33,237 nucleotides of DNA from Calidithermus chliarophilus DSM 9957 (lineage in GTDB: Bacteria; Deinococcota; Deinococci; Deinococcales; Thermaceae): assembly GCF_000430045.1 (NCBI RefSeq), contig NZ_KE387023.1, positions 1,403,258 through 1,436,494 on the forward strand, written 5' to 3'. The notes under the pieces are model-generated. The model worked only from the letters and a program-made list of their open reading frames with translations, was not told the origin of the DNA and did no database searches. The translations under genes were made by a program, and so were the position numbers. This document shows positions 4,948 through 22,265 of the stretch, one piece after another (within the stretch, counting starts at the first letter, position 1; each line of letters opens with the position of its first letter).

Positions 4948-5670
4948 ATGAGCGCGACGCCACCTCGAGACCTCCTGGGCTTGTCGGGACGCATCGTGAT
5001 GGTCACGGGGGCGGGGCGGGGCTACGGCCGCTCCATCGCCCACGCCTACGGGCGCAACGGGGCGACCGTAGTCACCGTGGACCCTGACGTGGAGCTGGCT
5101 ACCGGGGTTGCCTCGGAGGTCGAGGCGCTGGGGGCCACGGCCATCCCCATCCGCGGCGACATGTCGGTGGTGCTCGACGTCATGACCACCTTCGAGAAGA
5201 TCGAGGAGCTGTTCGGGATGCTCGACGGCATCGTGCACGTGACCAGCGCCGAGAGCAAGACGGCCTTCGTGGAGCTGCTCGAGGGCGAATGGTACGACCT
5301 CCTCAACGCCGACGTGAAGTCGAGCCTCTACGTGCTGCAGCAGGGCCTGCGCTACCTCTCGGGCGGGGGCTTCGTGACCATCGTGCTGCCGCCTTTGCAC
5401 CGCGAGCAGCCGCACGTGGCCGCCATCCGGGGGGCGGTGACCGGGCTCATCGAGGGGGCCACGCGCATCTTCCCCTCCAACGTGCGGGTCAACGGGGTGG
5501 TGCCCAGCCGCGACCCCTCGAGCGAGGAGTACGACCAGGCCCTCGTGCGCGGCACCATCGGGCTGGGCTCGATGGTCTCGGAGGGCATCCGCGGGCAGTT
5601 GATGGAGGTGCTGCTCCCCGACCCGCCCCAGCCGCCCGAGCTCTACGACCTGCTGCGCGAATTGCCTTAG
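4948..5670 (+). CDS. SDR-fold protein lacking the catalytic tetrad
   Basis: 240 residues with a short-chain dehydrogenase/reductase Rossmann fold. The nucleotide-binding glycine motif TGAGRGYG and the following strand ending VVTVD are clear in the first 45 residues. The usual NNAG motif is replaced by VTSA. The catalytic Ser region reads VTIVLPPLHREQ, and the YxxxK motif is replaced by VAAIR, so Ser, Tyr and Lys are all missing. The family normally performs NAD(P)-dependent oxidoreduction; this member may only bind a nucleotide, or act as a structural or regulatory protein. The start ATG is 19 bases after the MITE-like element and has no strong ribosome site. Confidence 0.85.
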   Translation: MSATPPRDLLGLSGRIVMVTGAGRGYGRSIAHAYGRNGATVVTVDPDVELATGVASEVEALGATAIPIRGDMSVVLDVMTTFEKIEELFGMLDGIVHVTSAESKTAFVELLEGEWYDLLNADVKSSLYVLQQGLRYLSGGGFVTIVLPPLHREQPHVAAIRGAVTGLIEGATRIFPSNVRVNGVVPSRDPSSEEYDQALVRGTIGLGSMVSEGIRGQLMEVLLPDPPQPPELYDLLRELP

Positions 5671-10795: not shown

Positions 10796-12214
10796 CTAAA
10801 GCTGAGCCCCGTCCCCGAAGCGCTCGAGCGCCCGCAGGTACTCGGGGTCCCGGTAGCGCTCGAGGCTGAAGGCCGGGGCGTACTCGGGCAGCGGGTCGCC
10901 CAGGATGTGCGCCGCCAGCAGTTCGCCCGCGGCGCAGGCCGCCATCACGCCGAAGCCGGAGAGCGCCCCCACCACGTAAGCCCCCTCCACCCCCAGCGGC
11001 CCGATCAGTGGGCGGTTCTCGCGGGTCTTGACGTAGTAGCCCCCGTCGATCCAGGGCTTGGGGGCCTTCTCGAAGTACCGCCCCAGGCCCGGGATCATCC
11101 GGGCCATGCCGCGCAGGGCGACGTCGGCGTAGTGGGGGTCGATGGGCAGGGGGAAGCGGGGCTCGAGCGGCTCCAAGTGGTAGTTGTAGAGAACGATCAG
11201 GGTGTTGCTCTCGCCGTGCCCGTCGGGGCGGCAGTGGACGCCGGGGGGGAAGGGCTCGAGCAGCCAGCGCGTGGAGGGCTCCTCGGCCAGCATCTCCTGT
11301 TCCTCCGGGCTCCAGGGCAGCCGCACCTCGTCGGCCCAGATGAGCATGGGGGCCTCGCGCGGCACCACTCCCAGGTGCTCGGGGAAGCTCATCTTCAGGT
11401 GAAGCTCGGCGAAGACCGGGATCTCGACCCCCAGCATCTGCCCCACGGCCTTCTGCATAGGCCCCGCCGCGTTGACGAAGCAGGGGGTCCGGACGGTGAA
11501 GGCCGAGCCGTCCTCGCGCCGCGCCTCCACCGCGCTCACCCGCCCCGCCGTGGTCTGGACCCCCGTCACCCGGCCCTGCACCAGCCGCACCCCGTGGGCG
11601 CGGGCCTGCTCGAGCATCCACATCCCCAACTGCTGCGCCGAGAACCACCCGGCCCGCCGCGCGTGCAGCACGGCCACGGTATCCTCGGCCAGGTAGGGGA
11701 AGTGCCGCCGGATCAGGGCCTTGTCGGTGATGAGGTCGGCCCCGTCCGGCTGGCCCTCGAAGCCGTGGGCGGGCGCCGGGGCGTAGCTTCCCCCCTTCCC
11801 GTCGTGGACCCGCAGCGGCCCCGCCCCCATCCGCGCGGCGTTCTCGGCGGCCTCGAGCAGCACCGGCACCTTGCCCGCCTCGGCGGTGGCGTAGAGGTAA
11901 CCCCGCCGGCCCAGCCCGATGCGGTCGTCGCTCTCCCGGGCGATCTGCTCGAGCCGCTCGATGCTGCGGTTCATCAGGGCGATCATGGCGCCGTCGGGTC
12001 CATGAGTACCGGCATCGCCGGGCCGCTCGGGCGGCTTCACGGGCCACCAGTTGCGGTAGCACTCGGTGGACTTGTCGCTCGTGAGCGAGAGCGGGGCGTC
12101 CTGCTCGAGCAGCACCACGTTCTTCACCCCGCGCTTCACCGCGAGTTTGTAGGCAACAGCAATTCCGGCGATCCCGGCTCCACAGATGACCACTTCGGCC
12201 TCAAGGTTGGACAT
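10796..12214 (-). CDS. FAD-dependent oxidoreductase of the DAO family
   Basis: 472 residues. The N-terminal dinucleotide-binding motif GAGIAGIAVAYKLA is followed by a glutamate ending the second strand (VVLLEQD), as expected for FAD binding. The family motif TECYRNWWP appears near residue 50. A later segment has a typical C-terminal flavin-contact pattern (GGYYVKTRENRPLIGPLGVE, then VVGALSGFGVMAACAAGELL). Relatives include sarcosine and dimethylglycine dehydrogenases and D-amino-acid oxidases; the substrate is not determinable here. The ATG at 12214 lies just downstream of a palindrome and a TATACT box, so the transcript probably has almost no leader. Confidence 0.9.
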   Translation of the reverse strand: MSNLEAEVVICGAGIAGIAVAYKLAVKRGVKNVVLLEQDAPLSLTSDKSTECYRNWWPVKPPERPGDAGTHGPDGAMIALMNRSIERLEQIARESDDRIGLGRRGYLYATAEAGKVPVLLEAAENAARMGAGPLRVHDGKGGSYAPAPAHGFEGQPDGADLITDKALIRRHFPYLAEDTVAVLHARRAGWFSAQQLGMWMLEQARAHGVRLVQGRVTGVQTTAGRVSAVEARREDGSAFTVRTPCFVNAAGPMQKAVGQMLGVEIPVFAELHLKMSFPEHLGVVPREAPMLIWADEVRLPWSPEEQEMLAEEPSTRWLLEPFPPGVHCRPDGHGESNTLIVLYNYHLEPLEPRFPLPIDPHYADVALRGMARMIPGLGRYFEKAPKPWIDGGYYVKTRENRPLIGPLGVEGAYVVGALSGFGVMAACAAGELLAAHILGDPLPEYAPAFSLERYRDPEYLRALERFGDGAQL

Positions 12215-12320: not shown

Positions 12321-13418
12321 ATGGCCTACTTTCTTGACCTGTTCTCCCCCGAAACTTATGAAGCTTTTAAAAGGTCTAGTCGGGATGTTTCAGGCTTCAG
12401 GATACGTCATCAAAGCGCGGCTAGTCGTATTAAGATTGGCGACAAACTAATTTGCTACATGACGAAACTATCGCGCTGGATTGGACTCTTAGAAGTCACT
12501 AGTAAGAGCTATATTGATGATACGCCCATCTTTTACCCAGAGAATGATCCTTTTGTGGTGCGCTTCAAGGTCAAACCACTAGTCTGGTTAGAAAAAGAGA
12601 AGGCAATCCCTATTCATGAAGCTGAGGTTTGGGATAGCCTCTCATTCACTCGAGGTCAAGACAAAAATAGCTCAAGATGGACAGGGAAAATACGCTCGAG
12701 TTTGGTTACTATAAGTGATAGCGATGGGAAATTCCTTGAAGACATTTTATACCGTCAGCAGAATTCCACAAATATTTTCCCTATAGCTGACGATTTGTAC
12801 GAAAAATTACTTAGACATAGAGTAAGAACACTCGATAAAGTGGTAACGGTTACGGTTCCCCAGGATGCAGACCTGCCGCAATTAGAGAAAGCAATTAACC
12901 TAGAAACTCGCGAGTCTATAAAGATTCAAGCTTTACTTGCACGTATTGGAGCAACGATGGGTATGAAAATATGGATTCCTAAAGGTGATCGCACTGGTGT
13001 TCTTCAGGAGTGGCAACCTGAACCAGGGGTGCTACTTGAGAGATTACCTCTCAATTATGATGAAACAACACTAAAGACCATAGAACAGATAGATGTGTTA
13101 TGGTTCAAAGGCAGATCTATTGCGAGGGCTTTTGAAGTTGAGCATACTACCTCTATCTATTCTGGTATTCTTCGAATGGCTGATTTGATCGCGCTACAGC
13201 CTAATATGAATATCAACCTTCATATTGTTGCGCCTTCTGCACGTAGAGAAAAGGTGTTCCAGGAGATTACTAGACCGGTTTTTGCTTTGTTAGAGCGACC
13301 TTTGCAAGAAATTTGTACGTATATTTCTTACGATAGCGTTGAAGAGTTATCGAAGCTTCGCCATTTGTCACACACCTCTGATTCTATCCTGGATGAATAT
13401 TCAGAAGAAGCTGAGTAA
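12321..13418 (+). CDS. EVE-like domain fused to a putative PD-(D/E)XK-type nuclease
   Basis: 365 residues and strikingly AT-rich against its GC-rich surroundings, with rare-for-host codons throughout, so recently acquired. Residues 1 to about 140 resemble an EVE/PUA-like domain (YFLDLFSPETYEAFKRS, IKIGDKLICYMTKLSRWIG, LLEVTSKSYID), a fold used to read modified bases. Residues about 190-320 contain a conserved-looking core IEQIDVLW (Asp258), then AFEVEHTTSIYSGILRM (Glu272, Glu274, His275), consistent with a restriction-endonuclease-like fold, though the usual Lys is replaced. The combination suggests modification-dependent restriction; this is inference. It stands alone, with no methyltransferase nearby, between two minus-strand metabolic genes. 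No clear ribosome site precedes the ATG. Confidence 0.7.
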   Translation: MAYFLDLFSPETYEAFKRSSRDVSGFRIRHQSAASRIKIGDKLICYMTKLSRWIGLLEVTSKSYIDDTPIFYPENDPFVVRFKVKPLVWLEKEKAIPIHEAEVWDSLSFTRGQDKNSSRWTGKIRSSLVTISDSDGKFLEDILYRQQNSTNIFPIADDLYEKLLRHRVRTLDKVVTVTVPQDADLPQLEKAINLETRESIKIQALLARIGATMGMKIWIPKGDRTGVLQEWQPEPGVLLERLPLNYDETTLKTIEQIDVLWFKGRSIARAFEVEHTTSIYSGILRMADLIALQPNMNINLHIVAPSARREKVFQEITRPVFALLERPLQEICTYISYDSVEELSKLRHLSHTSDSILDEYSEEAE

Positions 13419-16162: not shown

Positions 16163-16238
16163 GCCAAGGTAGCTCAGTCGGTAGAGCATGCGACTGAAAA
16201 TCGCAGTGTCGGCGGTTCGATTCCGCCCCTTGGCACCA
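16163..16238 (+). tRNA. tRNA-Phe (anticodon GAA), attachment site of the integrative element
   Basis: 76 bases with CCA encoded. The acceptor stem GCCAAGG pairs with CCTTGGC, the anticodon stem TGCGA/TCGCA holds loop CTGAAAA (anticodon GAA), and the T arm is GGCGG TTCGATT CCGCC. The 3' 45 bases, from the anticodon loop to CCA, are duplicated exactly at 22221-22265, so the element integrated here without breaking the gene. Confidence 0.95.
16194..16238. other. Attachment site, left (att inside tRNA-Phe)
   Basis: 45-bp copy forming the 3' part of the intact tRNA-Phe, starting at the anticodon loop and ending with CCA. It is identical to 22221-22265. Confidence 0.92.
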
Positions 16239-16271
16239 AGAGAAGAGCCGATAGGGAAGGCTCAAAATAAG

Positions 16272-16302
16272 ATAACCGGGAGTTGAAAAGACTCCCGGTT
16301 AT
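16272..16302. terminator. Bidirectional terminator at the left end of the element
   Basis: A perfect 12-bp stem ATAACCGGGAGT/ACTCCCGGTTAT with a 7-base loop lies between tRNA-Phe and the integrase stop. It would end the tRNA transcript, whose original terminator was moved 6 kb away, and the integrase transcript from the other side. Confidence 0.75.
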
Positions 16303-16309
16303 TGTGTCT

Positions 16310-16330
16310 TGACGGCAACCTGACGGCAAC
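16310..16330. other. Left arm-type repeat of the element
   Basis: Two tandem copies of TGACGGCAAC(C), 11-bp period. The same 21 bases occur at 22117-22137 in the same orientation near the other end, as expected of integrase arm-binding sites. Confidence 0.65.
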
Positions 16331-16335
16331 GCGCC

Positions 16336-17502
16336 TCAGGCGGTGGGTCTTCCCTCTTTGGGGCCTAACAACTCGCTCACCGCTAGGGCGGCCTTCTTGC
16401 GCTGGGACGCGAAGACGTGCTGATAGGTCTGCTGGGTAAAGGAGACGTTGGCGTGTCCTACCCGCTCAGAAATAACCTTGGCGTCCATCCCGGCCAGGGC
16501 CAGCAAGCTTACATGGGTATCGCGCAGATCGTGGAAGCGGATTCGCTTCACCCCGGCCCGCTGGATGACCCGCACGAACTCGCGATGAAGGTTCCCCGGC
16601 TCGATCGGCGTGCCCAGCGAGGTCGTGAACACCCAATCCCCATTCGCCCAATCCTCACCCATCTCGAGGCGCTCCTTCTCCTGCTTTTCCCGGTGCTGCC
16701 TGAGCACCTCGAGCACGTCCGGCCCCACGTCCACCGGGCGGCTCGAGCGGTGGGTCTTGGGGGTGTGGATGACCTTTTCCCCCCCGGCCACGGTGTAATT
16801 GCGGCGTACCCAGATACAAGCGCCCCGCCAGTCCACATCTGACCATTTGAGCCCCAATAGCTCGCCCCGGCGCATCCCGCTCATGAGGGCCAGGAAGAAG
16901 AGGGCGTACCAACGGGAGTGCTGGGCCTCGGCAAGAAACGCCCAAGCCTCTTGGGGCGTCCACACCTCGCCCACGTAGCGGGGAGCTTTGGGCGGCTTCA
17001 CCCGCTCGGCCGGGTTCCAGGGGAGGAGGCCCCACTGCACCGCGTCGTTCAGGGCCGCGTGCAGGGCGCGGTGAACGAGCCGCACCGTGGTGGGGGAGAG
17101 GGTCTCGAGCCGCTCGGGGTCGTTAGGGCGAATCCGCTTCTTGAGCAGTTCGGCGTAAAGGTGGGTCAGGTGCAAGGGCTGTAGGCGCTGCACCGCCACG
17201 TCTCCCAGGACAGGGGTCACATGCCGCCTGAGCGAGATGGAGTATTGCAGATGGGTCGTGGGCTTGACGCGGTGCTCTACGGCGGCTAGCCACCGCTCGA
17301 TGAACTCAGAGACGCTGATCCGGTCGGGGTCGGGGAGAAGGTTCCGGCCATAAGCCGATAAAAGCTCAGCGAGCTTCTTGGCGGCCTCTTTGCGGGTCTT
17401 GGCATACCCTCGATGCCGCTTTCCGTTTACGGTAAGCGAATACTCATAGCGGCCATCAGAGCGCTTGTAGATCGAGCCCTCATTATTTGATCTTTTGGGC
17501 AT
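16336..17502 (-). CDS. Tyrosine recombinase (integrase) of the element
   Basis: 388 residues. The N-terminus is an AP2-like arm-binding domain (GSIYKRSDGRYEYSLTVNGK), followed by a core-binding SAM-like domain (about 65-165) and the catalytic domain. Catalytic residues: R211 in SGMRRGELLGL, a Lys in HTPKTHRSSRPV, H324 and R327 in FHDLRDTH, H350 in RVGHANVSF, and Y360 in TYQHV. It catalyses integration into, and with the excisionase excision from, the tRNA-Phe site 98 bases downstream of its stop. Its ATG overlaps the preceding small gene by 20 bases, so both are made from the promoter near 17715, separate from the main operon. Confidence 0.95.
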   Translation of the reverse strand: MPKRSNNEGSIYKRSDGRYEYSLTVNGKRHRGYAKTRKEAAKKLAELLSAYGRNLLPDPDRISVSEFIERWLAAVEHRVKPTTHLQYSISLRRHVTPVLGDVAVQRLQPLHLTHLYAELLKKRIRPNDPERLETLSPTTVRLVHRALHAALNDAVQWGLLPWNPAERVKPPKAPRYVGEVWTPQEAWAFLAEAQHSRWYALFFLALMSGMRRGELLGLKWSDVDWRGACIWVRRNYTVAGGEKVIHTPKTHRSSRPVDVGPDVLEVLRQHREKQEKERLEMGEDWANGDWVFTTSLGTPIEPGNLHREFVRVIQRAGVKRIRFHDLRDTHVSLLALAGMDAKVISERVGHANVSFTQQTYQHVFASQRKKAALAVSELLGPKEGRPTA

Positions 17503-17704
17503 CCTCCACCCCCTCCAGCAGTCCTAAAGCCTCGAGCCCGGCCCGCACCACCTCACCCCTGCGCCGGGTATCGAGCCGTAGAAAAGCCTCTACCACCTCG
17601 CCGCGCCCGCGAAAGCGGGCGCTTGCCGTCCTCTCTCCCGGTGCCAGCTCGATCAGCCCGCCAAGGGCCTTAAGCCTCAACTCCTTCGGCGGTATCTTTC
17701 TCAT
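17483..17704 (-). CDS. Small basic protein coupled to the integrase
   Basis: 73 residues from the ATG at 17704 (MRKIPPKELRLKALGGLIEL). The sequence is helical and Arg-rich, with GEVVEAFLRLDTRRRGEVVRAGL in the middle. It overlaps the integrase start by 20 bases. A TATGAT box (17711-17716) ends six bases before the ATG, so the message is probably leaderless. It could be a regulator or directionality factor for the integrase; the family is not recognised. Confidence 0.7.
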   Translation of the reverse strand: MRKIPPKELRLKALGGLIELAPGERTASARFRGRGEVVEAFLRLDTRRRGEVVRAGLEALGLLEGVEDAQKIK

Positions 17705-17710
17705 ACCCCA

Positions 17711-17728
17711 ATCATAGCACGTGTACAC
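17711..17728 (-). promoter_or_regulatory. Leaderless promoter with GTGTACAC palindrome (integrase operon)
   Basis: On the minus strand a TATGAT -10 box lies six bases before the ATG of the small gene. GTGTACAC (17721-17728), just upstream, is a perfect 8-bp palindrome in the spacer and a plausible operator. No good -35 is seen. Confidence 0.5.
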
Positions 17729-17836
17729 AAGCGAATATCCCCTAATCTCTATTAAGGGAAATATGCCCCCTCCAACTCCACCGCCCACGAGCGCCGTCCT
17801 GGACGGTGCTCACCGACCGCGTAAAACGAACGATAA

Positions 17837-17856
17837 GCCCCCTCGCTCGAGGGGGC
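17837..17856 (-). terminator. Terminator ending the main operon of the element
   Basis: GCCCCCTCG/CGAGGGGGC hairpin with a 2-base (or 4-base) loop; on the minus strand it is followed by TTATCGTT. It lies after the last gene of the long operon and separates it from the integrase unit. Nothing else is seen in 17705-17891. Confidence 0.6.
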
Positions 17857-17891
17857 CGGGGTGGAGTAGTAGCCGGGGGGCTCGAGCTTTG

Positions 17892-18200
17892 CTAGGGCTT
17901 CAGCAGGGCCAGAAGCCCCCCACCGGCGGCCCGGTGACGCTGAAGGGCCTTCACCAGGGACGGGTGAGGGGTCACCGGGCTTAGCCCTGGAAGACAGTCA
18001 CCGGGTAGGGGGAGCAGCACGGCCAGCACCGGGCGGCCCTGCTCGAGGGCCTTCACACCCGGCGAATCGGCCTCGTCAGGCCGCACGGCGAACCAGGACG
18101 GCGTATCTCCTCGGGCGTCAAGCCAGAGGGTCACGCCGGGCGCGTTGGCGGCTAGGAGGGCTTCGGCGGTCTGCTCGAGTTTGGTGATTCGGCTTCTCAT
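17892..18200 (-). CDS. Unknown element protein, 102 residues
   Basis: Begins MRSRITKLEQTAEALLAANA, a short amphipathic helix likely to form a coiled coil, followed by a region with strand-like patterns (GVTLWLDARGDTPSWFAV, then PVLAVLLPLPGDCLPG). The ATG overlaps the previous stop in an ATGA, so translation is coupled. It is the last gene of the main operon. I do not recognise the family. Confidence 0.7.
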   Translation of the reverse strand: MRSRITKLEQTAEALLAANAPGVTLWLDARGDTPSWFAVRPDEADSPGVKALEQGRPVLAVLLPLPGDCLPGLSPVTPHPSLVKALQRHRAAGGGLLALLKP

Positions 18201-18433
18201 GTGATCCTTCCGTGTTCGGACAACTGCTGCTCGAGGGCCTCAAGGCGGCGCTCGAGGTCGTGGGCCTCGTGGAGCTTGGCGTAAGCGAGGGTGACTTGCC
18301 CTAGGGCGTGGATGGCGCGAAGGGCGAGGTTGGGGTCTATGTCCTCGACGATCTCTGAGGCCCGCAAAACGGCCCGCCACAGCCGCTTTTTGGCCCTCTC
18401 CAAATCTCCAGTAGTTCGCGCTTTGGACGGCAT
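18197..18433 (-). CDS. Unknown helical element protein, 78 residues
   Basis: All-helical and charged: LERAKKRLWRAVLRASEIVE, then ALGQVTLAYAKLHEAHDLERRLEALEQQL, with a probable C-terminal coiled coil. The start ATG is preceded by GGGGGA. Size and composition recall small phage or plasmid accessory proteins, but no family is recognised. Confidence 0.7.
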   Translation of the reverse strand: MPSKARTTGDLERAKKRLWRAVLRASEIVEDIDPNLALRAIHALGQVTLAYAKLHEAHDLERRLEALEQQLSEHGRIT

Positions 18434-18454
18434 AAATCCCCCTTGGGGGAGGGC

Positions 18455-19156
18455 TTACCCCCCCTCCCCCCGCCCGAACAGCCGCTCGACCGGCGGCACC
18501 GGGATTCGGTAGTCCTGTGCACCGAAGTGCAGCGCGGCGGCCAGGGCCTCATCGAGCTTGGGCAGGTATTCCTCGGCAAGCTCGAGCTTTTCCACGACGG
18601 CGGCTCGATCCGGCCCGGCCAGCCCACGGCGCAAGCGGGCCATGGCCTCCCGGTACATGAGCTTATCGGCCTCATCACCGTCCTGGACGAGCTTCCCCAC
18701 CGTGGGAGAGGCCAAGTAGTGCTGTAGCGCGGTGTCCTGGTGCTCGAGGGCGTGCAGAACCAGCTTCTCGAACCGCTCACCGAGACGGCCCGGCGTGTTG
18801 GCCCACAGGGTTTGGAAGTTGGTGGCCGCGAGCAGTTGGGCCGTTTCAGAGGGCGGGTTGGGCTTGGCGCGGGCCTCGAGGTTGGTGAGGTAGTTGGCGC
18901 GGGCGGTGCGGTACTGTCTGACGATCTCCTCGAGCCGGTTCTTGAACGACCGATTGAGGGCGTCCCAAGCCTGAGCCTTGCCCAGCGGGGAAAGGGACTC
19001 ATCGCGGTCGATCATCGCGGCGCGGCTCGGGTAATCGGCGAGGGCGGCGAAGAGTTGGCGCACCGGGCCGGTGATCGAGTCGGGGGGGCTGAGCTTGCTG
19101 AGGATTTCTTCGGCGGTTGCGGCTAGAAGAGCTTGGGTGTTGGGCTGGTTCAACAT
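18455..19156 (-). CDS. Unknown helical element protein, 233 residues
   Basis: A soluble, mainly helical protein with many Ala, Leu, Glu and Arg (LEEIVRQYRTARANYLTNLEA; LGERFEKLVLHALEHQDTAL). There are no membrane segments and no recognisable catalytic motif. The start ATG at 19156 follows AGGAG. It lies between a 121-residue unknown gene and a 78-residue unknown gene in the operon. It may be the element's cargo or a regulatory/structural component; function is open. Confidence 0.75.
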   Translation of the reverse strand: MLNQPNTQALLAATAEEILSKLSPPDSITGPVRQLFAALADYPSRAAMIDRDESLSPLGKAQAWDALNRSFKNRLEEIVRQYRTARANYLTNLEARAKPNPPSETAQLLAATNFQTLWANTPGRLGERFEKLVLHALEHQDTALQHYLASPTVGKLVQDGDEADKLMYREAMARLRRGLAGPDRAAVVEKLELAEEYLPKLDEALAAALHFGAQDYRIPVPPVERLFGRGEGG

Positions 19157-19186
19157 ACGTACTCCTGTAAAGGTTTGAGAGAGGGC

Positions 19187-19552
19187 TTATTGCCTGAGGG
19201 CCTCAGAGGGGCTTACAGCGGGTCTAGGGGGCGCTCGAGCCGGGCGGTGGGCCACAGCTACCCGCTCCAGCCGTGGCGGGTGGCCGGGCCACTGGCCGCA
19301 CACCTCGACCGACTGCCTGGGGCTGGGGTAGAGCCGGGCCAGCTTGTCCAGAGCCTCGGCTATCCGGCGCTCGAGGGCGAGGCGCGGCATACCGGGAAAG
19401 CGGGCGTGGGCCTCGAGGTCTTCGGGGGTGGGCCAGGCGGTGATGTAAACCGGCTCACCGTCAACCTTGACCACCAGCAGCGGGGGTTGCAGGGTCTTGA
19501 GCTTGGCTGCGATGGCCCCGGTGCGGGTGGTCAGGGCGTCCCAGGGGGTCAT
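19187..19552 (-). CDS. Unknown element protein, 121 residues
   Basis: Starts MTPWDALTTRTGAIAAKL and contains LLVVKVDGEPVYITAWPTPED, an alpha/beta pattern, with a Pro/Arg-rich C-terminal tail (HRPARAPPRPAVSPSEA). The ATG at 19552 overlaps the stop of the RepA-like gene in an ATGA, so it is translationally coupled. The family is not recognised. Confidence 0.7.
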   Translation of the reverse strand: MTPWDALTTRTGAIAAKLKTLQPPLLVVKVDGEPVYITAWPTPEDLEAHARFPGMPRLALERRIAEALDKLARLYPSPRQSVEVCGQWPGHPPRLERVAVAHRPARAPPRPAVSPSEALRQ

Positions 19553-20697
19553 ACCTCGACCTCCCACCCTTCGGGCTCGGCCTCGAGGTCGGGGGTCGGT
19601 GCGGGCTCGGGCGGATTTAGCGCAAACTGCGCAGGGGTGCGCAAGGGGGTTTGCGCTAAATCCGTGCGTTGCTCATCGGCTTTTTCCCCATTTACGGCAA
19701 AGCGCAAAGTGTACAGCGTGGGGCTACCCTTGCCGCTGGACTCTCGGGCCTCGACCTCCCCGGCGGCCTTGAGGCGGCGCAGGGCCTCGGTGATGGTGCG
19801 CTCGGAAGCGTTGGCCCGCTCGGCCACCTTGCGGATGAGTTCACCGCGCAGCAGCGGGCCTTCTCCCAGCACCTCCCGCACGCCCCGCAGGGCGCGGGTC
19901 AGGGCAGGGGCGTGGCTCGCTTCTTCTTCGGGCAGGTCGGTGATCTCGAAGCGCAGGCTGTCCCGCTCGAAGTGGCGGGCGATGCCCAGCGGTTCGCCCA
20001 TCGGGCCGAGGTTGTTTTTCAGGCAGTCCAGCCTAAGCACGTCCTGCCCACCGGTGAGCTTGGGGGCCACCCGTTGCAGCAGGTAGGCACTGCGGGCCCC
20101 GCCCAGCTTGTAGAAGCTCCCCGCCACCCCGCGCTCGAGCACCGTGAGCCCCTGCACCGGCTTGGGGGTGTGGTCCAGCACCAGCACCGCAGGCCCCAGG
20201 GCGGCAATCTGCCGCAGGCGGTTCATGACCTCGGCCACGTGCTCGGCCTTCTTGGAGTCGGCGTAGAAGAAAGCTGATGTCCAGGCGTCGATCACGATGA
20301 GCCTAGGTGCATCCAGCCGCGCCAGCCCCTCCAGCTCATCGAGTCGCTCGAGGTCGAGCCCCTGGGAGGGGTTGGAAGGCTCGAGGTAGTGGATGCGCTG
20401 GAGCGCTTCGGCTCCAACCCCCAGCCCGGCGGCGACCTTGCGATACCAGGGGCCTTGCAGGCGGGCGTCGGTGTCGTAGTCCAGGTGCCACACCTCGCCC
20501 TGCTGGGTGGGGGCCTCGAGGAAGTCCACCCCGGCGGCCACGGCCACCTCGAGGGCGGCGATGAGGGTGCTCTTGCCCGCACCGGCAGGCCCGCCCAGGA
20601 TGCCCACCGTACCGGCGGCGATGTACCCTTCCCACAGCCAGCCCACCTCTGAGGCGGTGGGCAGGGTATCGGCGGTTTTCCAGGCGAAGCCGCTCAC
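19549..20697 (-). CDS. RepA-like AAA/RecA-fold ATPase with C-terminal winged helix
   Basis: 382 residues. Walker A GGPAGAGKST spans residues 35-44, Walker B PRLIVIDAW ends at about Asp137, and the motif VLVLDHTPKP (171-180) is typical of hexameric RepA-type helicases of plasmids and phages. Residues about 285-330 form a winged helix (LRGELIRKVAERANASERTI, then RRLKAAGEVEARES). The tail contains TDLAQT and QFALNP, encoded by an inverted pair of iteron-like 13-mers. The GTG start overlaps the previous stop (GTGA) and has GGGAGG upstream. Likely role: replication initiation or helicase for the element. Confidence 0.88.
   Translation of the reverse strand: MSGFAWKTADTLPTASEVGWLWEGYIAAGTVGILGGPAGAGKSTLIAALEVAVAAGVDFLEAPTQQGEVWHLDYDTDARLQGPWYRKVAAGLGVGAEALQRIHYLEPSNPSQGLDLERLDELEGLARLDAPRLIVIDAWTSAFFYADSKKAEHVAEVMNRLRQIAALGPAVLVLDHTPKPVQGLTVLERGVAGSFYKLGGARSAYLLQRVAPKLTGGQDVLRLDCLKNNLGPMGEPLGIARHFERDSLRFEITDLPEEEASHAPALTRALRGVREVLGEGPLLRGELIRKVAERANASERTITEALRRLKAAGEVEARESSGKGSPTLYTLRFAVNGEKADEQRTDLAQTPLRTPAQFALNPPEPAPTPDLEAEPEGWEVEV
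19613..19663. repeat. Inverted pair of iteron-like repeats in the RepA-like gene
   Basis: GGATTTAGCGCAAAC (19613-19627) and its exact reverse complement GTTTGCGCTAAATCC (19649-19663) are separated by 21 bases. The same 13-mer core occurs three more times at 20746-20831. Both halves are read through as codons. Confidence 0.8.
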
Positions 20698-21371
20698 CGC
20701 TTGCCTCCCTTACCCCGCGCAAACACGCTTTGGCGCTTTGCGCTGTTTGCGCTAAATCGGGTTTGCCCATCTCCATCGCGTTTATTTAGCGCAAAGGGCC
20801 TTGCGCTACCCCTTGCGCTTTGCGCTAAATCCGGCGGTAAATCGCGGGGGTGCTGAGCACCCTTCTTGAATCCGCGCTTGGCGGTGCTCAGGGCCTCTTG
20901 GTGAGACAAGCCGGTAACTAGCGCGGCCTGTACCAGCTCCTCAAGGACGCGGTGCTCATCGAGTCCAAGGTGCTCGAGTTGGCCTAGCCCGAACGCGGCG
21001 CGGGCCAGGACGTTGTTTCTTTGCCCTACGGGGGCAGATTGCACCTCCAGCACGGCGCGAGCTAGGGCGGCTTCGCTGTAGGCCCGCTCTCTATCGCGGG
21101 TCGTAGAGCGTTGCCAGCGGGGTTTCTCGTTCGGGTGCTCAGGATCAAGCACCGAGAGGCTGCGATGCAGGGCCAGGAGCCGGATTTCCTCAGCCGAGAG
21201 CAAGTAACCCTCGATGTCATCGGCATTTTCTCGGTAGGCGGTAAGGATTACACCCCGCTCGAGCAGATCGGGCGGGGGGGTCTCTACCTCGAAGTGCTCG
21301 AGCTCGAGCACGGCGCGGGCCTGTTGCAGGTGGGCGGGGTCGAGTACAATGGACTTGCGCACGGCCCGCAC
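20694..21371 (-). CDS. PriCT-like protein without primase catalytic domain
   Basis: 225 residues. Residues about 115-180 (GQRNNVLARAAFGLGQLEHLG, then ALVTGLSHQEALSTAKRGFKKG and HPRDLP) match the primase C-terminal helical domain that normally follows a prim-pol or Toprim catalytic domain, but no catalytic domain precedes it. The C-terminal tail (PDLAQS, PFALNK, RFSANS) is encoded by iteron-like repeats just upstream of the RepA-like gene. The GTG start lies three bases after the previous stop. Probably a replication accessory or helicase-loading protein. Confidence 0.75.
   Translation of the reverse strand: MRAVRKSIVLDPAHLQQARAVLELEHFEVETPPPDLLERGVILTAYRENADDIEGYLLSAEEIRLLALHRSLSVLDPEHPNEKPRWQRSTTRDRERAYSEAALARAVLEVQSAPVGQRNNVLARAAFGLGQLEHLGLDEHRVLEELVQAALVTGLSHQEALSTAKRGFKKGAQHPRDLPPDLAQSARGSARPFALNKRDGDGQTRFSANSAKRQSVFARGKGGKR
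20746..20831. repeat. Iteron-like repeats upstream of the RepA-like gene (candidate origin)
   Basis: TTTGCGCTAAATC occurs at 20746-20758 and 20819-20831, and as its reverse complement with one change at 20784-20795. Partial copies (TTGCGCT) lie at 20735-20742, near 20801 and near 20813. The group lies 50-130 bases before the RepA-like start, the usual place for iterons of theta replicons, inside the tail of the PriCT-like gene. Confidence 0.65.
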
Positions 21372-21374
21372 CCC

Positions 21375-21611
21375 CTAACGCCCCCCGCCAGCCCCGGCGG
21401 GGGGTTCGCCCTCGAGGAACTCGGCAAGGGCCTTGACCGGTATCAAAAGCCGATTGCCGTTCCTAACAGCCCGCAAGCGGCCAGAATGGATATGCTCGTA
21501 AGCTTGCCGTCTCCCCAGGCGAAGTATCCGGGCCGCTTCCTCGACCTTGAACACTAGCGGGCGGCCAAAGCCGAGCCGCTCTGATACTTCCCAAACGCTA
21601 TCGAAGCTCAT
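21375..21611 (-). CDS. Excisionase-like HTH protein (second)
   Basis: 78 residues. The core FKVEEAARILRLGRRQAYEH, then IHSGRLRAVRNGNRLLIPV, is the winged-helix DNA-binding fold of the MerR/excisionase (HTH_17) type. The ATG shares one base with the stop of the preceding HTH gene (TGATG), so the two are coupled. Likely role: excisionase or operon regulator. The other HTH gene could equally be the excisionase. Confidence 0.85.
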   Translation of the reverse strand: MSFDSVWEVSERLGFGRPLVFKVEEAARILRLGRRQAYEHIHSGRLRAVRNGNRLLIPVKALAEFLEGEPPAGAGGGR

Positions 21612-21802
21612 CAATCGCCCTCCTTGCCCTGCCGAAGCCGCTCGAAAGCCTCTGGAGCAAACTCCTTGAGGGATTCGGGTTTGATGCGGAGACGGGCACC
21701 GATGAAGTAGCCTGCAAGCTTTTTTTCTCGCACCCAACGGCGAACCGATTCCTTGGAAACACCCAAAAGCCGTGACACTTCCCCAACCTGTAGATCGCGC
21801 AT
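21611..21802 (-). CDS. Excisionase-like HTH protein (first gene of the operon)
   Basis: 63 residues, MRDLQVGEVSRLLGVSKESV followed by RRWVREKKLAGYFIGARLRI, a classic MerR/Xis-type helix-turn-helix with wing. The ATG is preceded by AGAGGTG. It is the first gene after the long leader from the promoter at 21980-22008. Likely an excisionase or repressor of the element. Confidence 0.85.
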   Translation of the reverse strand: MRDLQVGEVSRLLGVSKESVRRWVREKKLAGYFIGARLRIKPESLKEFAPEAFERLRQGKEGD

Positions 21803-21841
21803 ATACGCACCTCTGTAAAATCTGGTGGCTTAAAAGCAAAT

Positions 21842-21865
21842 GGCCCACCGCGCAAACGGTGGGCC
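21842..21865 (-). terminator. Leader hairpin 2 of the element operon
   Basis: Stem GGCCCACCG/CGGTGGGCC with a 6-base loop; on the minus strand it is followed by ATTTGCTTTT. It lies between promoter and first gene, so it must be read through or controlled. Confidence 0.55.
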
Positions 21866-21923
21866 TGCCGACAAGTGGGAGTGTCAACGGGGGTGGTCTA
21901 GGCATTAGAGCCTCCAAAAATGA

Positions 21924-21947
21924 GAGCCCGCCGGGGTGGGCGGGCTC
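21924..21947 (-). terminator. Leader hairpin 1 of the element operon
   Basis: Stem GAGCCCGCC/GGCGGGCTC with a 6-base loop; on the minus strand it is followed by TCATTTTTGG. It is a terminator-like structure about 40 bases after the predicted transcription start. Confidence 0.6.
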
Positions 21948-21979
21948 GGGGTAGAAATAGGGACAGTCTAGCAATTTTC

Positions 21980-22008
21980 AGTATAGGGCCAACAAAACAG
22001 CCTGTCAA
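21980..22008 (-). promoter_or_regulatory. Consensus promoter of the element's main operon
   Basis: On the minus strand TTGACA (22003-22008), exactly 17 bp, then TATACT (21980-21985). It is the best sigma-70-type promoter in the window. It leaves a leader of about 170 bases before the first HTH gene, holding two terminator-like hairpins and no ORF of note. Confidence 0.85.
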
Positions 22009-22116
22009 GCCAAACCGGTCAATGGGGGGTGAATCAGCATAGCCTCGCGTGGCAAGGTGGTTTGCTCTGAGCGGTGCAAGAAGCGTCTACAACGGGCTAA
22101 AACCCCTGCTCAGGGG

Positions 22117-22137
22117 TGACGGCAACCTGACGGCAAC
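22117..22137. other. Right arm-type repeat of the element
   Basis: Tandem TGACGGCAACC, identical to 16310-16330 and in the same orientation, 83 bases inside the right attachment site. A small hairpin CCCCTG/CAGGGG (22103-22116) adjoins it. Confidence 0.65.
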
Positions 22138-22220
22138 CGGGGGGTAAAAGTGGGGGGTGGGGGTATGTAAAAAGCCCGTCCAGGACACAAGCGGAAACGT
22201 CAGGATACGCCTGACTGTAC

Positions 22221-22265
22221 CTGAAAATCGCAGTGTCGGCGGTTCGATTCCGCCCCTTGGCACCA
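22221..22265. other. Attachment site, right
   Basis: Exact 45-bp duplicate of the 3' part of tRNA-Phe (16194-16238). The 5' half of a tRNA is missing, so it is not a second tRNA gene. Confidence 0.92.

Follow-up and report, generated by a model that had tools for sequence, protein, structure and literature searches.

ICETh2 of Thermus thermophilus HB27 and its relatives have been described previously (Baquedano 2020; Garcia-Quintans 2020, PMC7693054), with excision and integration via Int2 (PMC7693054), an integrase that acts on both ICETh2 (tRNA-Val) and ICETh1 (tRNA-Ile). ICETh1, the partner of ICETh2, is likewise a tRNA-integrated Thermus element with a 47 bp repeat and carries DNA donation genes (TdtA, NurA-like); transfer of ICETh2 is reported to need ICETh1 and the competence apparatus of the recipient, a route published as transjugation (PMC5365140). 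Work on ICETh2 has centered on its primase-polymerase (Ppol), yet deletion of Ppol did not stop the element (PMC7693054). Here we analyzed a 33,237-nucleotide stretch (the window) of the 4.69-Mb genome of the hot-spring bacterium Calidithermus chliarophilus DSM 9957 (contig NZ_KE387023.1), in which a 6-kb element occupies a tRNA-Phe gene (window positions 16194–22265). We consider it probable that the element belongs to the ICETh2-like integrative elements of Thermaceae, of which it would be a small RepA-type form devoid of a Prim-Pol domain, and that it follows the mechanism of excision, replication and competence-mediated entry proposed below. The original prediction regarded such minimal elements as poorly described in Thermaceae, which is correct only in part, as Thermus and Meiothermus relatives of the same anatomy as ICETh2 (PMC7693054) and the transfer route (PMC5365140) have been published. 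The anatomy is thus known; the window element and two Meiothermus relatives represent a Prim-Pol-less variant of it.

The borders are defined by the last 45 bases of a tRNA-Phe(GAA) gene found with ARAGORN, which are repeated exactly at the far end, with 6,027 bp separating the two attachment (att) copies (Table 1). Ordinary chromosomal genes flank the element on the left and right. All element genes lie on the minus strand and point at the tRNA, in the order (right to left) of two HTH_17/excisionase-family genes, orf225, repA, orf126, orf233, orf78, orf102, orf101 and integrase. Profile matches were obtained for the integrase, both helix-turn-helix (HTH) genes and the RepA-like ATPase, and scans with Pfam, PHROGs and NCBIfam recognized no transfer, relaxase, capsid, terminase or portal genes among the element genes. 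The discrete tRNA-Phe element with excision and replication genes, exact att duplication and no transfer or capsid genes that had been predicted from the sequence is thereby borne out.

The likeness to ICETh2 extends to attachment at a tRNA 3′ end with a 45–50 bp repeat, a tyrosine integrase beside the tRNA, an excisionase, a primase-type gene followed by a helicase gene, the lack of its own transfer machinery and a Thermaceae host. However, the element is smaller (6.0 versus 11.3 kb), occupies tRNA-Phe rather than tRNA-Val, has a divergent integrase and carries another N-terminal domain where the Prim-Pol domain is missing. ICETh2-like elements have been defined by Ppol, Hel and Int2 homologs of at least 40% identity near a tRNA with a 45–50 bp repeat. 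The repeat here is exact over 45 bp, and repA lies immediately downstream of the primase-type gene orf225, its product sharing 57%–62% identity with the helicase from a Thermus element that carries a Prim-Pol gene. A Ppol homolog, however, is lacking, as orf225 has no Prim-Pol domain, and the integrase is probably below the 40% Int2 cut-off, judged from its identity to other family integrases (about 30%–38%). For these two reasons, we do not file the element as a strict ICETh2 homolog, although its build is of the ICETh2 type; putative integrative and conjugative elements (ICEs) without Ppol were also mentioned by the ICETh2 authors. ICEs in the strict sense have their own conjugation machinery, and no transfer gene was found here in the three profile scans. 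The DNA donation genes of ICETh1 are all absent as well.

The replication module resembles that of RSF1010 (IncQ) in combining a RepA-type hexameric helicase with iterons, and RepA matched the RSF1010 RepA structure (1g8y, 3.2e-6). It differs from RSF1010 in that the helicase appears to carry a fused winged helix, both the RepB′ primase and a separate RepC are missing, and the iterons fall within coding tails. The winged-helix signal at the RepA C-terminus is weak (GntR, 4.8e-4; lambda-O-like PHROG, 1.6e-4), but suggests an origin-binding domain. Five exact copies of the iteron TTTGCGCTAAAT occur in the window versus 0.02 expected, and these are the only copies in the genome, which upholds the predicted iterons. 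All five fall in coding regions, with two copies at the tail of repA and three at that of orf225, and are translated in three codon phases (FALN, DLAQ and FSAN), which argues that constraint acts on the iteron DNA and not on the peptide. Both features of a RepA-type iteron replicon, a hexameric RepA helicase and origin iterons, are therefore predicted from the sequence, and the self-contained excise-and-replicate unit originally proposed is plausible.

The predicted PriCT-like protein is supported only indirectly. No family match for orf225 was found in Pfam, PHROG or NCBIfam; the support comes from sister elements, whose Prim-Pol proteins have a C-terminal domain that can be aligned with the C-terminal half of orf225. 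Residues from 184 onward are predicted to be disordered, and the structural model folds partly (predicted local distance difference test [pLDDT] score of 73) without a significant PDB match. Counterparts in Thermus relatives are 305–421 aa long, and the one tested has a Prim-Pol domain (PF09250, 6.8e-29). The window element and two Meiothermus elements have kept only the C-terminal part, with a different N-terminal domain, which in Thermus and Meiothermus occurs in other replication contexts as well. PriCT domains are considered equivalent to PriL, the non-catalytic subunit of primase (PMC5862659), and PrimPol-PV1/PrimQH proteins combine PriCT with RepA, DUF927 or DUF3987 helicases (Kazlauskas 2018, PMC5862659). 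The same domain set is spread here over neighboring genes, with a PriCT-like domain beside a RepA helicase, although orf225 comprises the PriCT-like part and no primase domain. This natural loss of Prim-Pol agrees with the observation that Ppol-deleted ICETh2 still makes its circular form (PMC7693054). A later paper reported that all ppol mutants carry addAB suppressor mutations (PMC9751324), which makes their phenotypes harder to interpret.

Table 1. Features of the tRNA-Phe element (window coordinates)
Feature	Position	Strand	Evidence or remarks
tRNA-Phe (GAA); attL core is its 3′ 45 bases	16163..16238 (core 16194–16238)	+	ARAGORN; exact repeat
Terminator-like hairpin between attL core and left arm sites	16272..16302	.	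Equivalent seen at left end in nearly all relatives
Left arm-type sites, TGACGGCAAC ×2, 11-bp spacing	16310..16330	+	
Tyrosine integrase, 388 aa	16336..17502	-	Pfam Phage_integrase 7.9e-25; PHROG integrase 9.7e-78
orf101, small conserved gene overlapping integrase start	17483..17704	-	Homologs
orf102	17892..18200	-	No homolog found
orf78, small helical protein	18197..18433	-	Conserved in RepA-type elements and second element of own genome
orf233, weakly conserved	18455..19156	-	26% identity to Meiothermus element
orf126	19187..19552	-	Conserved immediately downstream of helicase in 12 loci
repA, RSF1010-RepA-like helicase, predicted C-terminal winged helix, iteron-encoding tail	19549..20697	-	AAA_25 1.4e-23
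Iteron pair in 3′ coding tail of repA	19615..19661	19615–19626 -, 19650–19661 +	
orf225, PriCT-like C-terminal domain, Prim-Pol domain of homologs absent, disordered iteron-encoding tail	20694..21371	-	
Three iterons in 3′ coding tail of orf225	20746..20830	20746–20757 +, 20784–20795 -, 20819–20830 +	
HTH_17/excisionase-family protein 1	21375..21611	-	HTH_17, TIGR01764 "excise"
HTH_17/excisionase-family protein 2	21611..21802	-	HTH_17, TIGR01764 "excise"
Sigma-70-like promoter TTGACA-17-TATACT, sole one in element, upstream of all genes	21980..22008	-	Consensus match only
Right arm-type sites, TGACGGCAAC ×2, orientation as on left	22117..22137	+	
attR core, exact 45-bp copy of tRNA-Phe 3′ end	22221..22265	+	

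At the element ends, the repeat TGACGGCAACCTGACGGCAAC, which the original prediction had missed, is present in the same orientation 72 bp inward from attL and 84 bp inward from attR. These repeats look like integrase arm sites, since a close relative has left a 1.5-kb remnant at this tRNA-Phe in another Thermaceae genus (L088:6052–8087), and the remnant keeps the left copy exactly, with a further exact copy nearby, despite its truncated integrase. Between its att copies the remnant also has other small genes, and a further right end, in inverted orientation, lies close by. Homologs of orf101 gave 16 matches in related loci, mostly immediately upstream of the integrase; its product is a candidate recombination accessory factor.

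The surroundings of related loci were fetched, giving 15 aligned elements including the window element, plus a second element in the same genome. Related insertions, which the original prediction had proposed to look for at Thermaceae tRNA-Phe loci and whose absence would have spoken against it, are abundant in Thermaceae: 15 att-bounded relatives besides the window element were found in Thermus, Meiothermus and two further genera, at tRNA-Phe, Arg, Met, Lys, Gln, Val and Ile (seven isotypes). Cores are exact over 44–101 bp in 14 elements (the window element and the second element of its genome included) and imperfect in two. Across the aligned elements, orientation and integrase position are constant, and the integrase stop is 120–143 nt away from the outer attL edge. 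In all 15, the two ends have in common a repeat of at least 9–12 bp (tandem integrase arm-type sites). The second element of the host genome (contig C3, L099:6908–14634) lies at tRNA-Val(TAC), measures 7,682 bp with an exact 45-bp core, and encodes a Toprim/CHC2-like primase and a DUF3987 protein but no RepA. A search of 61 genomes gave RepA homologs in 14, mostly Thermaceae, and orf225 homologs were present in half of 50 Thermaceae genomes (25/50), covering all five genera sampled. An alignment-based scan of GTDB contigs gave matches in Thermus caliditerrae, Meiothermus luteus and T. igniterrae, whereas a single-sequence scan of the same contigs, with patterns that were too specific, gave none.

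Helicase modules vary among these elements (RepA, two other ATPase types, DUF927-type fusions, as assigned from the published description, and Toprim with DUF3987), and the integrase tree shows no grouping by helicase type. Two elements with integrases 99.7% identical have different central regions. Two Meiothermus elements (L079 and L080) with integrases 93% identical and ends about 91% identical occupy tRNA-Met and tRNA-Phe, which reads as a natural change of target site; one backbone on different tRNAs parallels the published action of Int2 on ICETh2 and ICETh1. The element belongs to a widespread mix-and-match family related to ICETh2, in which replication modules are interchangeable and the end structure and gene order shared. 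Of the 14 scorable elements, 12 have their densest repeat window at the 3′ terminus of the helicase or primase gene, and the iteron sequence differs from one replicon type to another. This placement has a probability of about 2e-11 if random and if shared ancestry is ignored, and its true significance is weaker because the elements share ancestry. It is possible, if somewhat doubtful, that in this family the replication origin sits in the 3′ tails of the coding regions of each element's helicase and primase genes and that each element has an iteron sequence of its own, so that origin and initiator would form one cassette swappable between integrase/tRNA backbones. On the same reading, the primase-polymerase would have given way in this sub-type to a PriCT-like protein devoid of catalytic function, with replication relying on a host or other primase. 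Replicon-specific coding-tail iterons, recurrent tandem arm sites and near-identical integrases on different tRNAs go beyond the published ICETh2 accounts compared; the ICETh2 Ppol paper makes no mention of iterons or arm sites.

In the proposed mechanism, the integrase would bind the tandem 11-bp arm sites near each end and recombine the 45-bp core in the tRNA-Phe 3′ end, with tRNA-Phe rebuilt upon integration. The direction of recombination would be set by the HTH_17 proteins, perhaps together with orf101. Following excision, the RepA hexameric helicase with its winged helix would be recruited to the iterons in the repA and orf225 coding tails, starting plasmid-like replication, with orf225 serving as a non-catalytic PriCT-type helper and priming performed by the host or another factor. 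Entry into new cells as DNA is suggested to proceed via natural competence, because the element lacks transfer genes, possibly after being pushed out by an ICETh1-type donor system.

Several points weigh against this reading. ICETh2 replicates little if at all once excised (PMC7693054), and replication here may be weak too. The element integrase does not exceed about 38% identity with any integrase compared, and the iteron-position test counts related elements as independent. The sole congener tested supports the reading insofar as its tRNA-Phe lacks the element, with a left flank 91% identical up to this gene, but the contig stops 450 bp past the tRNA, so that the empty site is matched on the left flank only. 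The borders, genes, iterons, arm sites, relatives at many tRNA genes and exchange of replication modules are seen in the sequences, whereas excision, replication, iteron binding and the transfer route are inferred.

Among the alternatives, the element could be an inert fossil, the decayed relative of a larger ICE or prophage that has lost the ability to excise. Its small size, three short genes with no clear function and the existence of the 1.5-kb remnant in another genus fit such decay. Nonetheless, the core genes are all open and full length, the att cores and arm sites are intact, and independent relatives with exact att pairs are equally small (5.4–6.7 kb), indicating that small size is the normal form. 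There was likewise no sign of the larger prophage whose discovery would have overturned the original prediction, and the 15 further att-bounded relatives argue that the element is not a prophage remnant. We consider a fossil unlikely.

Slightly more improbable still is a phage satellite, packaged and spread by a helper phage, with orf78 and orf233 as packaging or capsid-modifying genes. In its size, attachment at a tRNA gene, excisionase genes and Rep-type replication, the element fits satellites of other bacteria, and orf78 and orf233 encode uncharacterized helical proteins. However, a satellite would be expected to have packaging or capsid-modifying genes or phage homologs, and the profile scans gave no terminase, capsid or portal match; RepA, orf233 and orf78 had no phage relative in 50,697 phage genomes (INPHARED; RepA by tblastn), pattern scans of IMG/VR found no RepA relative, and part of the family lacks orf78 and orf233. 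A small-terminase assignment of orf78 was rejected for absence of PHROG support. A Lamassu LmuA assignment of orf233, with a single weak match (1.6e-4), was set aside as well. A phage or plasmid origin was also rejected, as RepA was unmatched in PLSDB (tblastn) as well as in the two phage collections. Prim-Pol relatives of a sister element are found in many phages and plasmids, all below 60% identity and with coverage of up to ~79% of the query.

The lack of its own transfer genes would also suit an integrative mobilizable element with a cryptic origin of transfer (oriT) or relaxase, moved by classical conjugation, and many such elements in other bacteria are similar in size. This is the least likely of the three, as the profile scans detected no relaxase, RepA has no relative in PLSDB, and published Thermus transfer does not use a route of relaxase plus type IV secretion system (PMC5365140, PMC7767461).

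An ICETh2-type element taken up by competence is consistent with the host genome encoding a ComEC-type competence gene homolog, and reliance on outside transfer makes the competence/transjugation route directly testable. Natural loss of Prim-Pol, with the PriCT-like domain, RepA helicase and iterons retained, suggests what the true replication core may be, and the Prim-Pol-less elements offer a test system of 5.4–6 kb. The family also suggests how one integrase backbone can shift among tRNA genes and swap replication modules.

Other observations concern the family and the surroundings of the element. In one relative (L031), the att repeat (5546–5646 and 11554–11654) continues for 56 bp past the tRNA and takes in part of the element's own end, a pattern that successive insertion of two related elements could produce. 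Two orf101-type genes ~7 kb apart near a contig end in another genome (G029, L076) suggest tandem family elements. Another family of the same order has a distant relative of RepA (L034:1690–7140) that adjoins an 891-aa open reading frame (ORF) resembling a phage tape-measure protein. The model of orf126 is a confident alpha/beta fold (pLDDT of 87) with no significant PDB match. A cluster on host contig C5 (L100:7735–18900) encodes a HerA-like ATPase, a 423-aa protein, an N4/N6 methylase and an M78 peptidase beside CRISPR-array-like repeats; its gene order is suggestive, but we do not claim it as an ICETh1 donor module, as the neighboring protein has no Pfam match and PADLOC assigns a defense HerA. 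Two strong intrinsic-terminator hairpins (window 21842–21947) lie between the sole good promoter of the element and its first gene, possibly for attenuation or copy control; a clear double terminator was seen in the window element only, and leader terminators were thus rejected as a family feature. Outside the element, a 365-aa ORF (window 12321–13418) in a stretch of ~52% G+C, versus ~70% around it, looks recently acquired.

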